The translations under genes were made by a program, and so were the position numbers. Under the pieces are notes generated by a model, which saw only the letters and a list, made by a program, of their open reading frames with translations, searched no databases and was not told the origin of the DNA. A stretch of 64,000 nt of DNA, taken from the NCBI RefSeq assembly GCF_030818485.1, contig NZ_JAUTAJ010000004.1, positions 248,001 to 312,000 on the forward strand. The letters run 5' to 3'. The stretch is from Pseudoroseomonas cervicalis. GTDB taxonomy: Bacteria > Pseudomonadota > Alphaproteobacteria > Acetobacterales > Acetobacteraceae. Each line of letters starts with the position of its first letter. Position 1 is the stretch's first letter. Shown piece by piece: positions 50,948 through 55,901 of this stretch.

Positions 50948-52011
50948 CCCGCCTGCTCGAGATCGAGGGCCTGGCCAAGCACTACCCGGTGAAGAAGGGT
51001 GTGGTGCTGCAGAAGCAGGTCGGCACGGTGCGCGCGGTGGATGGCGTGTCCTTCCATCTCGACCGCGGCGAGACGCTGGCGCTGGTGGGGGAGAGCGGCT
51101 GCGGCAAGTCGACCACGGCGCGGCTGGTGCTGCGGCTGATCGAGCCCTCGGCCGGCAGCATCCGCTTCGACGGCCAGGACGTGACGAAGGTGACGGGCGG
51201 CGCCATGCGGACGCTGCGCCGGCGCATGCAGATCGTCTTCCAGGATCCCTATGCCAGCCTCAACCCGCGGCTGACGGTGGGCGATGCCATCGCCGAGCCG
51301 ATGACGGTGCACAGGATCGGCGATTCCGCCAGCCGCCGCGCCAAGGTGCATGAGCTGCTGCGCCTGGTCGGGCTGCAGCCCTTCCATGCCGATCGCTACC
51401 CGCATGAATTCTCCGGCGGCCAGCGCCAGCGCATCGGCATCGCCCGCGCCCTGTCGGTCGAGCCCGATCTGGTGGTGTGCGACGAGCCGGTCTCGGCGCT
51501 CGACGTCTCGATCCAGGCGCAGGTGGTGAACCTGATGAAGGATCTGCAGGCGCGGCTCGGCCTGTCCTACCTGTTCATCGCGCATGACCTGGCCGTGGTG
51601 AAGCACATGGCCGACCGCATCGCCGTGATGTATCTGGGCGCGGTGATGGAGGTGGGGGGCAAGCACGCGCTCTTCGCCCGGCCGCTGCACCCCTATACGC
51701 GGGCGCTGCTGGCGGCGATCCCGCATCCGGACCCGGCGCGGCGCGGCCGCGTCACCCCGCTCGGCGGCGATCTGCCGAGCCCGATGGCGGTGCCGCCGGG
51801 CTGCCGCTTCCACACGCGCTGCCCCTTCGCCCAGGCGCGCTGCAAGGATGAGGTGCCGGCGCTGCGCCCGGTCGGGCCGGATGGCCAGCAGGTGGCCTGC
51901 CATTTCGCCGAGACGCTGCCGGATGCCGGGCTCGACTACACCGGCGGCCTGACCGAGGCGGCGACGCGGCGCCTCGCCCTCTACGACGCGGCGCGCCGCA
52001 AGGCGGCCTGA
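50944..52011 (+). CDS. Dipeptide/oligopeptide-type ABC ATPase (DppF-like)
   Basis: A 355-residue second ATPase. Walker A is [20 protein letters not shown], the Q-loop [20 protein letters not shown], the signature [15 protein letters not shown], the Walker [13 protein letters not shown], and the switch [14 protein letters not shown]. The C-terminal extension has [19 protein letters not shown] and a late VACHF. It overlaps dppD by 4 bp (ATGA) and ends the operon at an inverted repeat. Confidence 0.94.
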
Positions 52012-52022
52012 ACCCATCCCGG

Positions 52023-52056
52023 CCCCGGAGGCGCCGCCGGCGCCCCGCGGCCGGGG
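52023..52056. terminator. GC-rich inverted repeat between convergent genes
   Basis: Outer arms CCCCGG (52023-52028) and CCGGGG (52051-52056) and inner arms GGCGCC (52030-52035) and GGCGCC (52039-52044) form a hairpin in the 51-bp gap between the end of the Dpp operon and the convergent Nif11-like gene. There is no T run. Confidence 0.5.
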
Positions 52057-52062
52057 AATGCC

Positions 52063-52425
52063 TCAGCCGCCGCCCACCACCTGCCAGGCCACCGGCAGCG
52101 CGCCGCTCACCGGCTGGGTCGGCTTCTGGAACACCAGCAGCGGCGAGCCGCCGCCGCTGCCATTGGTGAAGGTCAGGGTGAGGCCGCCGGCCACATCGTC
52201 CAGCGCCGTGTCCGGCAGGGCGCCGCCCCCGCCGCCGCCGCCACCACCGCCCTCCGGCTGCGGGGTGCGCCATTGCAGCAGCTCCTGCGCGGTGACGTCG
52301 AAGCCGGCCTGGCGCAGCAGCGCCACGCGCTGTTCCAGCGTCAGACCGGGCTCGGCCAGGCGGTTGCGCAGCGCCGGATAGGGCTCCATGGCCTGCAGCA
52401 GGGGGATCCAGTTCTCAGGGGTCAT
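52063..52425 (-). CDS. Nif11-like leader peptide, putative RiPP precursor
   Basis: A 120-residue protein. Residues 1-52 resemble the Nif11 leader: MTPENWIPLLQAMEPYPALR, then LTLEQRVALLRQAGFDVTA and QELLQW. A run of ten glycines (about 59-68) leads to ALPDTALDDVAGG, a classic double-glycine leader cleavage motif ending at residue 81. The remaining 39 residues (LTLTFTNGSGGGSPLLVFQK... to VAWQVVGGG) would be the core. It has Ser/Thr but no Cys, so no lanthionine rings are expected. The ATG at 52425 has GAGG 5 bp upstream; an in-frame ATG at 52488 would add 21 Pro-rich residues and overlaps the stop of a short upstream ORF. No modifying enzyme or peptidase-type exporter is near. Confidence 0.65.
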   Translation of the reverse strand: MTPENWIPLLQAMEPYPALRNRLAEPGLTLEQRVALLRQAGFDVTAQELLQWRTPQPEGGGGGGGGGGALPDTALDDVAGGLTLTFTNGSGGGSPLLVFQKPTQPVSGALPVAWQVVGGG

Positions 52426-52484
52426 CGCATCCTCGGCCGTCGAGGGCCCGGGCGCCGGGCAGGCGGGGGCGGGGTTTTCGGGGA

Positions 52485-52598
52485 TCATGGGGTGATGGCC
52501 GCAATGCTGCCGGCGCCGCTGTCCGGCCCCGGCGCCGCCAGCGCGGCGCGCAGGGCGGGGCGCCTGGCCAGCGGGCGGGTCCGTTCGGCAGGGCTCAT
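52485..52598 (-). CDS. Short basic ORF (37 aa) coupled to the Nif11-like gene
   Basis: An ORF reading MSPAERTRPLARRPALRAAL then APGPDSGAGSIAAITP. It has GGAGG about 9 bp before the ATG at 52598 (an in-frame ATG at 52607 also exists). Its stop overlaps the 52488 ATG of the next frame (ATGA). The start regions of this ORF and of the Nif11-like gene are alike: both have GAGGATG shortly before GCGATGA. It may be a leader peptide for translational coupling, a degenerate second precursor, or chance. It is too short to judge from sequence alone. Confidence 0.3.
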   Translation of the reverse strand: MSPAERTRPLARRPALRAALAAPGPDSGAGSIAAITP

Positions 52599-52683
52599 CG
52601 CATCCATCCTCCGGCGCCGAAGGGCGGCGCCGCGATGCGGAGGCTAGGGCAGGGCGGGCCGGCGAGTCCCGGGAGGCACGTCT

Positions 52684-53850
52684 CTAATTCTGTGGAATCC
52701 GTCTCGGCAGCATCTCCAGCACGGCGGCGGCGGCGGCGGCGCTGGGGGTGCCCTCGGGCGGGCGCAGCCCGTCCATCACCCGGGCGAAGCCCTGGCGCTG
52801 CGCCTCGGCGGCCGCCGGGTCGGTCAGCAGGCGGTGCAGCCCGTCGGCCAGGCGCTCCGGCGTGCAATCCTGCTGCAGATATTCCGGGATGATGGGCGCA
52901 TCGGCCAGCAGGTTGACCAGGCTGACATACTTCACCTGGATCAGCCGCCGGGCGATGGCGGCGGTCAGCGGGTTGACCCGGTAGCCCACCACCATCGGCA
53001 CGCCGGCCAGCGCCACCTCCAGCGAGGAGGTGCCGGATTTGATCAGCCCCGCCCCGCCCTGCCGCGCCGCGGCATAGGCATCGTATTTCTCGGCCACGCC
53101 ACGCAGCAGCAGGGGCTGCACCGCCCAGCCGGCGACGCCCTGGCGCACCGCAGCCTCGACCGGGCCGGCCAGCGGCAGCACCGGGCGCAGCCCGGGGAGC
53201 CGCGCCGAGAGACGCTCCAGCGCCGCGCCGAAAATGGGCAGCAGCCGGGCGATCTCGCCGCCACGGCTGCCCGGCATCACCAGCAGCACACGCTCCTCCG
53301 CGCCGATCCCATGGGTGGCGCGGAAGCGCGCCGCATCGCCGCGCTCGGCGCCCGATTCCAGGATGGAATGGCCGACGAAGCGCACCGGGATGCCGGCCCG
53401 TTCGAAGAAGGGCGCCTCGAAGGGCAGCAGCGTCATCAGCCGGTCGACCTGGCGGGCGATCCGGCGCACCCGGCCCGGGCGCCAGGCCCAGATCTGCGGC
53501 GCCACATAGTGCAGCACCGGGATGCCCATGGCCCGCGCCCGCGCAGCGACGCGGAGCGTGAAGCCAGGGCTGTCGATGGTCACCACCAAAGCCGGGCGGC
53601 GCGCGGCGATGTCGGCGGTCACCTCGTCCAGCCGGCGCATCACCCGGCGCAGCTTCGGCAGCACCTCCAGGAAACCCATCAGCGCCAGCTCGCCCAGCGG
53701 GAACAGGCTGTGGAAACCCTGCTCCGCCATGCGCTCGCCGCCGAGGCCGGCGAAGTCCAGATCGGGCCGCGCCTGGCGCAGGGCGGCGATCAGCCGCCCG
53801 CCCAGCGCGTCGCCCGAGGCCTCGCCGGCGACCAGATAGACCAGCGTCAC
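52684..53850 (-). CDS. lpxB: Lipid-A-disaccharide synthase
   Basis: A 388-residue GT-B glycosyltransferase that joins UDP-2,3-diacylglucosamine and lipid X in lipid A synthesis. Seen are LVYLVAGEASGDALGGRLIA, PLGELALMGFLEVLPKLRRV, VTIDSPGFTLRVAARARAMG, VLHYVAPQIWAWRPGRVRRI, VRFVGHSILE, LLVMPGSRGGEIARLLPIFG and LIKSGTSSLEVALAGVPMVV. The start is GTG at 53850, overlapping the stop of the nitrilase-like gene (GTGA). The usual neighbours lpxA, lpxD, fabZ and lpxI are not beside it here. Confidence 0.95.
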   Translation of the reverse strand: MTLVYLVAGEASGDALGGRLIAALRQARPDLDFAGLGGERMAEQGFHSLFPLGELALMGFLEVLPKLRRVMRRLDEVTADIAARRPALVVTIDSPGFTLRVAARARAMGIPVLHYVAPQIWAWRPGRVRRIARQVDRLMTLLPFEAPFFERAGIPVRFVGHSILESGAERGDAARFRATHGIGAEERVLLVMPGSRGGEIARLLPIFGAALERLSARLPGLRPVLPLAGPVEAAVRQGVAGWAVQPLLLRGVAEKYDAYAAARQGGAGLIKSGTSSLEVALAGVPMVVGYRVNPLTAAIARRLIQVKYVSLVNLLADAPIIPEYLQQDCTPERLADGLHRLLTDPAAAEAQRQGFARVMDGLRPPEGTPSAAAAAAVLEMLPRRIPQN

Positions 53851-54734
53851 GCGAATTCCGCCGGCAGGGGCTGCGGGAAGCTCTGGCGCGGCCAGTCGCG
53901 ATGGTTCAGCACGGCGCCGTCGCGCCGCACCGCCGCGATCCGCGCCGGGTCGAGATCGGCATAGACCCATTGCCCATGGCCGGCCGTGCCCTCGGCGATC
54001 AGCCCATCCTCCGGGAAGCCGCGGTCGATCGGGCCATGGACGGAGGCGGTGCCCCGGTTCTGGTCGAGCGCCGCCGACCAGGGCGCATCGCCCACGGTGG
54101 GGGAGACGGCCACGAAGCACTGATTCTCCAGCGCCCGCGCGGCGGCCGAGAAGCGCACCCGGTTGAAGCCGTGCAGCGTGTCGGTGCAGGTGGGCACCAG
54201 CACCAGCCAGGCGCCGGCCTCGACCTGGGCGCGGACATGCTTTGGGAATTCGCTGTCATAGCAGATGGAGATGCCGATCCGCCCCCAGGGCGTGTCGAAC
54301 ACCCGCGGCCCCGCCCCGGCCGAGACGCCCCAGCGCTCGGTCTCGAAGCGGGTCATGGCGTGCTTGTCCTGGAAGGCCAGGCGCCCCTCCGGGGTGATCA
54401 GCGGCGCGCGGTTGCGGATGGCGCCATCCTCGTCGCGCATCGGCAGGCTGCCGGGCAGCAGCCACAGGCCGGCGCGCTGCGCGGCGCCGCGCATCGCTTC
54501 CAGGATCTCCGGCGCGGCGGCGACCATGGCGGAGAGCTCCTCCGCCTCGCTGGCCGGCGACAGGCCGGAGAGCGCCGAGCCCAGCTCGACACAGGCATAT
54601 TCCGGCATCACGGCGAGCTCCGCGCCATGGGCGCGGGCCTCGGCCAGCCAGCGATCCAGCTTGGCTTCCCAGGCGGCGATGCTTTCCGGCCGCTCCACCG
54701 GATACTGGTGCAAGGCGAGGCGCAGGGTGGTCAT
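53847..54734 (-). CDS. Carbon-nitrogen hydrolase (nitrilase superfamily)
   Basis: A 295-residue nitrilase-fold amidase. The catalytic triad is Glu45 (VMPEYACVE), Lys124 (AFQDKHAMTRFE) and Cys158 (GISICYDSEFP). Such enzymes hydrolyse C-N bonds of small amides; the substrate here is not known. The gene overlaps the upstream GNAT gene by 4 bp (ATGA) and the downstream lpxB by 4 bp, so the three form a tightly packed operon. Confidence 0.92.
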   Translation of the reverse strand: MTTLRLALHQYPVERPESIAAWEAKLDRWLAEARAHGAELAVMPEYACVELGSALSGLSPASEAEELSAMVAAAPEILEAMRGAAQRAGLWLLPGSLPMRDEDGAIRNRAPLITPEGRLAFQDKHAMTRFETERWGVSAGAGPRVFDTPWGRIGISICYDSEFPKHVRAQVEAGAWLVLVPTCTDTLHGFNRVRFSAAARALENQCFVAVSPTVGDAPWSAALDQNRGTASVHGPIDRGFPEDGLIAEGTAGHGQWVYADLDPARIAAVRRDGAVLNHRDWPRQSFPQPLPAEFA

Positions 54735-55345
54735 GGCAGGGGCGCCCCCTCCAGCGCGCGGATCCAGAAGGTCAGGCGGTGCGGGCTCTCCTCGGCCTGC
54801 CCGGGCTCGCGCCAGGTGAATTCGCAGGCGAGGTCGGGATAGGGCGTATAGCCGCGCCTGCGCCAGAATTCGTCGAGTGGCGTGTAGTCGGCCGGGCGGC
54901 GCGGATCGTCGGCCGCGCGCTGCACGGCGCAGAAGGTCGCGTAGTCGAGGCCGAGGCTGCGCGCGTGCGCCTCCCGGTGCCGGAAGAAGGCGACGCCCGC
55001 GCCACGGCCGCGCCAGGGGCGGCGCAGCACGCTCTCGCCGAAATAGCAGAAGCGCGCGGGGTCGAGCCCGGCCGCGGTGAAGGCCTGGCGCACCGTGGCG
55101 TGGGTCTCGGCCATCGGCTCGCAGGTGGCGGCGCCCACCGCCTCCGCGCCGTCGCGGCAGAGGATCACCGCCGCCCCCGGCGCCTCGGCATAGGCGCGCA
55201 TGTAGCGGGCCTCATAGGCCTCGTCGCCCTCGTAGAGATAGGGCCATTCGCGGAACACCTCGATGCGCAGCCGGGCCAGCGCCGGCAGCCAGGGGTGCAG
55301 CGCATCGCCGCGCAGGGTTTCGAAGGCGAGGGGGGAAACCGACAT
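54731..55345 (-). CDS. GNAT family N-acetyltransferase
   Basis: A 204-residue acetyltransferase-fold protein. The N-terminus (LARLRIEVFREWPYLYEGDE) and the acetyl-CoA-binding loop (ESVLRRPWRGRGAGVAFFRH, of the R-G-x-G-x-G/A type) are seen, followed by LDYATFCAVQRAADDPRRPA. It is the first gene of the operon with the nitrilase-like hydrolase and lpxB. GNAT and nitrilase-like genes side by side occur in other proteobacteria, where the pair may act on the same small amide or amine. The ATG at 55345 has no obvious strong ribosome site. Confidence 0.82.
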   Translation of the reverse strand: MSVSPLAFETLRGDALHPWLPALARLRIEVFREWPYLYEGDEAYEARYMRAYAEAPGAAVILCRDGAEAVGAATCEPMAETHATVRQAFTAAGLDPARFCYFGESVLRRPWRGRGAGVAFFRHREAHARSLGLDYATFCAVQRAADDPRRPADYTPLDEFWRRRGYTPYPDLACEFTWREPGQAEESPHRLTFWIRALEGAPLP

Positions 55346-55463
55346 GGGGGTTGGAAGTAGGATAGAACGTCTCCGGGAAAAAGCCTGGGATCCGGAAAAT
55401 CCCGGGCGGGCCCGGGCGTTGTGTGCGGATCGCCGCCCAGGCGGCGCAGCGGGAGAGCAAGGC

Positions 55464-55901
55464 ATGGAACAGCAGCGGAAGAAGCGGATCCGGGGTGGCG
55501 TGCTGGGGGCGGGGCTGCTGGCCCTGCTGGCCGGCTGCGCCAGCGGCTCGGGCGACATGGCCAGCCCGCTGGCCGGCAATTGGCGGCTGGAAAGCCTGGG
55601 CGGGGTCGGCATCCGCAATGAGGGGCCGCGCGCCGCGGCGGTGGAATTCGGGCCGCAGGGCCGGCTGATGGGCTCGGGCGGCTGCAACCGCATCGCCGGC
55701 AGCTACACCCAGTCGGGCAGCCGGCTGACCATCGGCCCGGTGGCGGCCACCCGCATGGCCTGCATCGACCCGGTGGCGACGCAGAACGAGACCGCCTTCC
55801 TGGCGGCGCTGCAGAATGTGGCGAGCTTCCGCTACGATGCCGGGCGGCTGTTCCTGCTGGATGCGCAGGGCCAGGCCCTGGCCAGCCTGACCGGGCCCTG
55901 A
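55464..55901 (+). CDS. META-domain lipoprotein (HslJ-like)
   Basis: A 145-residue outer-surface or periplasmic lipoprotein. The lipobox LLALLAGC marks the Cys, which becomes the lipidated first residue. The META domain follows: LAGNWRLESLGGVGI, VEFGPQGRLMGSGGCNRIAG, LTIGPVAATRMACIDPVATQ and LQNVASFRYDAGRLFLLDAQ. HslJ-type META proteins are linked to heat and antibiotic resistance in E. coli, with unclear mechanism. It is divergent from the GNAT gene across about 118 bp. Confidence 0.88.
   Translation: MEQQRKKRIRGGVLGAGLLALLAGCASGSGDMASPLAGNWRLESLGGVGIRNEGPRAAAVEFGPQGRLMGSGGCNRIAGSYTQSGSRLTIGPVAATRMACIDPVATQNETAFLAALQNVASFRYDAGRLFLLDAQGQALASLTGP

Follow-up and report, generated by a model that had tools for sequence, protein, structure and literature searches.

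A Nif11-leader, double-glycine precursor gene behind lpxB in Pseudoroseomonas cervicalis: a candidate secreted peptide and the likeness of its core to RhiA

What kind of product is made by a short gene behind lpxB that joins a Nif11-like leader to a run of glycines and a double-glycine (GG) site is the question raised by this locus. An earlier note had proposed either a solo RiPP precursor, modified by enzymes elsewhere, or a Nif11-derived protein with another role, from the window, by which is meant the whole stretch of 64,000 nucleotides analyzed (C4:248001-312000; genome size 4.89 Mb, assembly 95% complete). The reading favored here, to which we assign a probability of roughly 0.6, is that the gene encodes a secreted peptide of the Nif11/NHLM kind that would be exported without modification, and whose core may have descended from a RhiA-type domain.

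The precursor gene (52063..52425, minus strand) is an open reading frame of 120 aa that exceeds the gathering cut-off of the Pfam Nif11 family (PF07862; 30.2 against 23.8 bits), which bears out the Nif11-like leader recognized earlier. With TIGR03798, the profile that had been named as a check, an aligned match was obtained (24.5 bits, E 2.4e-5, aligned over 9-68 of 68), although its score lies under the curated cut-off of 32.3 bits. The leader domain (residues 1-52; 52270..52425, -) is followed by a Gly-rich linker (residues 53-68; 52222..52269, -), delimited by pLDDT and by alignment to the database relatives P0001-P0003, in which ten Gly in a row start at residue 59. Linker length and letters vary among P0001-P0003, as expected of a spacer. 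The GG-site recognition segment ALPDTALDDVAGG (residues 69-81; 52183..52221, -) ends in the GG at residues 80-81 and carries hydrophobic Val, Leu, and Leu at -4, -7, and -12, positions also named for LahT substrates in the portion of PMC6363468 drawn upon here. The core (residues 82-120; 52066..52182, -) bears the RhiA-like family pattern TxTFxN..FQKP..P.AWQV and comprises 39 aa with no Cys, seven Ser/Thr, and one Lys, so that the ten-Gly spacer and the Cys-free core behind lpxB are as they had been described. In the structure model, four helices form the leader and a short helix lies ahead of the GG; block means of pLDDT are 64-83 for residues 1-50, values fall below 50 for residues 54-74 and for the core, and, as mean pLDDT is 58.3, no fold is claimed from the model. 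An alternative, longer ATG at 52488 would yield a 141-aa product; however, 52425 is the likelier start, because the context GAGGATG..CG-ATG is common to the starts at 52598 and 52425 and absent at 52488. The GAGG preceding the 52425 start was located in the sequence at 52431..52434 (-). Upstream on the same strand lies lpxB (52684..53850, -; GTG start at 53850, stop at 52684), assigned by LpxB relatives that are 40-96% identical at the named loci, among others, and regarded as context only, not as part of the system. Further upstream of lpxB, at 53847-55693 (-), are ORFs that by eye resemble a carbon-nitrogen hydrolase and a GNAT acetyltransferase. The interval 51900-53000 was scanned for Rfam families, promoters, and terminators, with no match.

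A protein search with the precursor returned five proteins at E<=0.01 (P0001-P0005), of which P0003, P0004, and P0005 belong to P. cervicalis. Both leader and core are kept in P0001-P0003, with leaders 69-98% identical to that of the precursor; in P0004 and P0005 leader identity over 52 residues is 81% and 79%, and the cores align at negative scores. A kept leader with swapped cores is the behavior of precursor families, and the uniform conservation of core and spacer that would have spoken for a folded domain is thus contradicted by two of the five relatives, although in one group the core is itself conserved. P0003 and P0005 both lie on one 3670418-base contig of P. cervicalis under the NCBI name toxin-antitoxin system protein, which is likely a misnomer.

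The gene is not solitary, as had been supposed. A profile built from 18 leaders, 11 of them from the same genome, was used at E<=0.001 and gave 15 matches there, dispersed over the genome, of which 13 extend to the GG end. The 12 tabulated cores are 8-39 aa in length and none contains Cys; the thirteenth, at C4:1268058, is likewise free of Cys. Hydrophobic residues at -4/-7/-12 together with GG or GA were seen in all 12 of the genome's leaders checked, and the hydrophobic pattern in 22 of the 24 leaders checked overall, the misses being P0002 (Ala at -4) and a Tistrella leader in which the spacing is absent. Within the genus, and with weak matches included in these counts, five leader matches were found in Roseomonas sp. 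GC11 (G006), six each in P. cervicalis ATCC 49957 (G010) and P. deserti (G011), and eight in Roseomonas sp. 18066 (G012). The profile matched once or twice, weakly, in each of G003, G005, G013, and G016, and four of these matches are, by eye, parts of longer ORFs that resemble methyltransferases. Scanning named sequences with the leader alignment led to no confirmed match.

The genes behind lpxB in relatives also bear on the 37-aa mini-ORF (52485..52598, -; 40 aa if read from 52607), whose stop overlaps the longer ATG of the precursor at 52488 in the sequence ATGA, as had been reported. Among the best 80 of 187 named lpxB loci, Nif11 genes adjoin lpxB in four: P. cervicalis ATCC 49957, GC11, P. 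deserti, and 18066. The last three each carry two Nif11 genes behind lpxB (genes A and B), a two-gene cassette that again speaks against a solo precursor, and in ATCC 49957 the first cassette gene runs into 460 N. The GC11 pair overlaps by 4 bases (L059 9754-10047 and 9449-9757), an arrangement repeated here by the mini-ORF and the start at 52488. Alignment of the mini-ORF product with the start of P. cervicalis gene A scored 70 (shuffle mean 26), which none of 1000 shuffles reached; for gene A of GC11 taken whole, the score was reached in 19 of 1000 shuffles. The mini-ORF tail alone, chosen post hoc, gave 0 of 1000 against the last part of the gene A core of GC11 and 20 of 1000 against the core of P0005. 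Because of these start and tail alignments, the mini-ORF appears to retain the first part of gene A, without the middle, and probably the last part, and the most plausible reading is of a first precursor gene reduced to a remnant by internal deletion. The look-alike start region noted earlier follows from its homology with the cassette's first gene. The locus would once have held the pair, gene A having since shrunk to this remnant. In P0005, a gene-B-type leader is joined to a gene-A-type core (GGWQLG...APGP...ATIT; compared with L059 9754-10047), a make-up that suggests that leaders and cores have recombined within the gene pair.

No peptidase-exporter is encoded in the window, as first noted: the genome has four C39-peptidase matches, one of them weak (25.2 bits), and all lie outside it. 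The genome-wide search for peptidase-ABC genes that the earlier note had called for did locate three NHLM-type export loci outside the window, at C4:1.98 Mb, C4:3.61 Mb, and C3:0.11 Mb. At all three the NHLM HlyD (TIGR03794) is above cut-off and a C39-ABC gene adjoins it. Both ABC proteins exceed their cut-offs at the C3 locus; those at C4:3.61 Mb score 834.6 against 853.3 and 591.3 against 709.4 bits, and the second ABC at C4:1.98 Mb scores 460 bits, also under cut-off, leaving ABC2 above its cut-off at one of the genome's own loci and under it at two. Directly upstream of hlyD at the C3 locus lies a 103-aa GG precursor that matched neither the NCBIfam families nor the leader profile; its orthologs in the same position in 18066 and P. 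deserti do match the leader profile (E 2.5e-5 and 3.3e-4, respectively) and have one Cys each in the core. In 18066, a further Nif11 precursor (19.4 bits with TIGR03798) follows an HlyD-like ORF. Such Nif11-type precursors beside NHLM exporters support, with the hydrophobic -4/-7/-12 residues and the core swapping, both the GG site and the precursor nature that had been proposed. Among the matches listed for 17 genomes of the genus, ABC2 is above cut-off in four, all of which are within the five genomes that have at least five leader matches (Fisher one-sided 0.0021, with kinship ignored and groups set post hoc); taking ABC2 above 440 bits instead (six genomes, four with leaders) gives 0.028 under the same limits. 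P. cervicalis ATCC 49957, with its six leader matches, has no ABC2 above cut-off among the matches listed, and G001 and G004 yielded ABC2-like matches (637 and 475 bits) yet no leader match. An NHLM_ABC2 gene above cut-off was found in G101, a Tistrella-type genome. Searches of the genome for LanC-like, SPASM radical SAM, and YcaO proteins gave no match at E<=0.01; in 14 control genomes the same classes were found in 2, 10, and 5, respectively. Modification by enzymes elsewhere is thus left without support as regards these three classes. The exporter loci L056, L242, and L244 hold precursor, HlyD-like, and ABC genes and no recognized modifying enzyme, most of the neighbors having been judged by eye.

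The core was followed separately from the leader. A whole-protein search of 118 relatives gave matches at E<=0.01 in 14 genomes, and those in G101, GC11, P. deserti, and 18066 were used; several others were rejected as unrelated frames or as containing stops. In G101 it picked up a core that does not sit behind a Nif11 leader. When proteins were searched with the core by itself, the sole match was the near-identical P0001, and a core profile matched six of 385 genomes of the class, strongly in the source genome, G101, G230, and G328 and weakly in two (E 7e-4 and 0.009). Outside the source genome, the strong matches are of Tistrella type and have leaders of 30-38 aa that end in ALPDEALDQAGG. 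A database search with seven core rows retrieved 12 proteins, namely six Tistrella-type, four Nif11-type, and P0013 and P0014, whose NHLP leaders are above cut-off (72 against 50.9 bits) and whose cores are 60 and 59 aa. The core family is small and occurs behind three leader types: Nif11, NHLP, and the short Tistrella leader. PF27136, the label on P0006, P0008, P0013, and P0014, gave no match in the Pfam search, and no paper on it was found.

It is the NHLP-borne forms that lead to RhiA. P0013 and P0014 match RhiA-family proteins of Rhizobium over 57-58 columns at E 9e-10 and 4e-7 (single-comparison E-values), and tblastn of P0013 against plasmids returned leader matches and weak Rhizobium core matches (E 0.06 to 1), one of them annotated rhiA. 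In a profile comparison of 12 cores with eight RhiA sequences the probability was 97.1, and with the NHLP forms removed (10 cores) it was 92.8; in neither set did any of 100 column shuffles reach the score. When 9151 ORFs and the eight RhiA sequences were searched by hmmsearch with the full core profile, three RhiA came next behind the family itself (best E 5e-4), with the remainder at or under noise; with the short cores, RhiA was not significant (E 0.7-1.7), and one unrelated ORF scored better. RhiA aligns with the core family over its N-terminal 35-57 residues or so. By profile, then, RhiA and the core family appear related, the likeness lying in the N-terminal strands of RhiA and resting on the NHLP forms; the core has about 39 residues and not the full RhiA domain of about 200. 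The PDB added no homolog of the core: the best core-profile match (E 0.42) was rejected, the nitrile hydratases, thiocyanate hydrolases, and two NHLP entries matched by P0013 all align over its leader, and antibody light chains matched by its core (E 0.17 and worse) were taken as chance. The founding RhiA paper is said to be that of Cubo and colleagues of 1992. RhiA of Rhizobium, of 202 residues or longer, is described in the part of PMC2275737 used here as a protein that is abundant in the cytoplasm and has no known function, whereas the core here is 39 aa behind a leader. Within the open-licence literature, no paper joining RhiA with Nif11 or NHLP was found.

Taken as a whole, these observations can be assembled into a working model. 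The Nif11 leader and the ALPDTALDDVAGG segment would bring the precursor to a C39-peptidase ABC exporter whose genes lie at another place in the genome, with the Gly linker giving the GG site reach; the peptidase would then cut after the GG and remove the leader, and the 39-residue core could leave unmodified via HlyD and the paired ABC subunit. That core may derive from a RhiA-type domain, of which it would represent the N-terminal strands. As for function, the peptides might act between bacteria or in signaling, as a bacteriocin or a signal, a role inferred because they are short, variable, and many per genome, with an exporter present. Weighing against the model are the distance of the exporter from the precursor gene, the TIGR03798 score under cut-off, the six leader matches of ATCC 49957 without a listed ABC2 above cut-off, the ABC2-like matches of G001 and G004 without a leader match, the C3 precursor that the leader profile misses and the Cys in the cores of its orthologs, the weak short-core result for RhiA, and the exceptions of P0002 and the Tistrella leaders at -4/-7/-12. 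A bolder extension, which is tentative and in our view somewhat doubtful, is that the first strands of a RhiA-type domain were captured behind three leaders and are exported unmodified, in some species as half of an overlapping-gene peptide pair, that they may act on RhiA-type proteins or partners in neighboring cells, and that new cores arise by domain capture and leader exchange, not only by drift of the tail.

The model meets several competing explanations. The likeness of the core to RhiA might be chance or convergence of short beta-strand sequences, with the rest of the model left standing; the short-core hmmsearch and the low pLDDT of the core (below 50) are in keeping with this. However, the pairwise matches of the longer NHLP-leader members and the column shuffles, none of which reached the score in either set, make such a coincidence fairly unlikely. 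It is also conceivable, if unlikely, that the precursor is modified by a distant enzyme outside the tested classes (a radical SAM protein without SPASM, a GNAT acyltransferase, an arginase, or other) before it is cut and exported. Nif11 and NHLP leaders are known to guide several enzyme types (Haft et al. 2010; PMC2887384), the core has its seven Ser/Thr and one Lys, and a GNAT-looking ORF, judged by eye, lies at 54731-55693; yet the LanC-like, SPASM, and YcaO searches of the genome gave no match, no modifying enzyme was recognized, mostly by eye, at L056, L242, or L244, and 13 of 13 of the genome's cores are without Cys.

Export itself would fall away if the product were an intracellular Nif11-domain protein with an unprocessed GG and tail, a reading in line with the lack of an exporter inside the window and with the description of RhiA as cytoplasmic in the part of PMC2275737 cited above. 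That the -4/-7/-12 and GG/GA pattern holds in 12 of 12 of the genome's leaders checked, that the core is swapped behind a kept leader, and that precursors adjoin exporters render it improbable. The NCBI name of P0003 and P0005 and the two overlapping genes (ATGA) behind lpxB in GC11 might instead suggest a toxin-antitoxin pair. However, both members of the pair carry Nif11-type leaders and GG sites, Pfam shows no toxin domain, and PADLOC returned no match at E<=1 for four of the five proteins, the fifth, P0005, matching PD-T4-9_B at E 0.053; a toxin-antitoxin pair is therefore very hard to credit. The unmodified, exported peptide of the Nif11/NHLM kind is thus retained as the preferred reading.

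Prochlorosins, which have Nif11 leaders, one LanM, and many scattered precursors, resemble the present system in serving many dispersed Nif11 precursors with one machinery, but here no LanC-like domain was found and the genome's own cores have no Cys. Class II microcins and class II bacteriocins are unmodified peptides with a GG leader and a C39 exporter, and would be alike in their working, except that the leader here is a Nif11 domain, that no immunity gene was recognized, and that the present system is known from its genes alone. In family terms, the closest relatives are the N11P precursors (PF07862, TIGR03798) with the NHLM exporter (TIGR03794, 03796, 03797), which, in the parts of Haft et al. 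(2010; PMC2887384) drawn upon, share the Nif11 leader, the GG site, variable cores, large paralog sets, and a three-gene exporter; here, however, no enzyme of the tested classes accompanies them, the precursors are scattered, and the TIGR03798 cut-off is not reached. Cyanobacterial bacteriocin clusters are alike in their N11P/NHLP GG precursors, C39-ABC, second ABC without peptidase, and HlyD, but in the sections of PMC3140520 used their precursors adjoin HlyD and C39-ABC and their cores are said to be rich in Gly, Cys, Ser, and Thr, whereas the window gene is far from an exporter. A family-wide survey that names RiPP clusters for a handful of non-acetous Acetobacteraceae does not include Roseomonas cervicalis among those named, as far as the portion seen extends (PMC8776678). 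The system thus looks like a known family in an unusual setting, with no enzyme of a tested class, dispersed precursors, and a three-leader core that looks descended from a protein domain. Since Nif11 and NHLP precursors are often sought via nearby modification enzymes, a genome with scattered precursors, three exporters, and none of three main enzyme classes would be missed. A core common to three leaders would make the origin of a RiPP-type core traceable, and RhiA would thereby gain small, exportable, and testable relatives.

Several further observations were made on the leaders and exporters. Five tandem Nif11-type genes lie at L013 7637-9479 (G000:C4, about 2.9786-2.9805 Mb), the last with a leader and without a GG site; two of their cores (GLFDILSSVASKAVPFLK... 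and GLWDILNSVAAKAVPFLK...) start like the frog-skin aurein and citropin peptides. In an amphipathic-helix test of nine cores, the shuffle fractions were 0.007, 0.045, and 0.05 for three and above 0.08 for the other six, and no membrane-peptide claim is therefore made. At L055 13788-14225 (-), a 145-aa ORF with a GG-like site (DALEQVHGG) lies convergent to the C4:3.61 Mb exporter and scores 27.3 bits, under the cut-off of 37, with a type III translocon model, perhaps driven by composition. A lone short Nif11-like ORF, which looks like a decayed leader, occurs at L206 (G007:C95:32871-33041) in a genome of the same genus without ABC2 above cut-off. In the Tistrella-type genome G101, a Nif11-type precursor (L207, G101:C35:11664-11819) has a core with three Cys (GSPWCMFTNGCYCIFTK), unlike the cores of the source genome. 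A GG precursor heads the NHLM exporter operon in three species (L056 7664-7975, L242 11327-11641, and L244 14632-14946), and its core is conserved (..LMLS.LGQ..), unlike the variable cores of the dispersed precursors.
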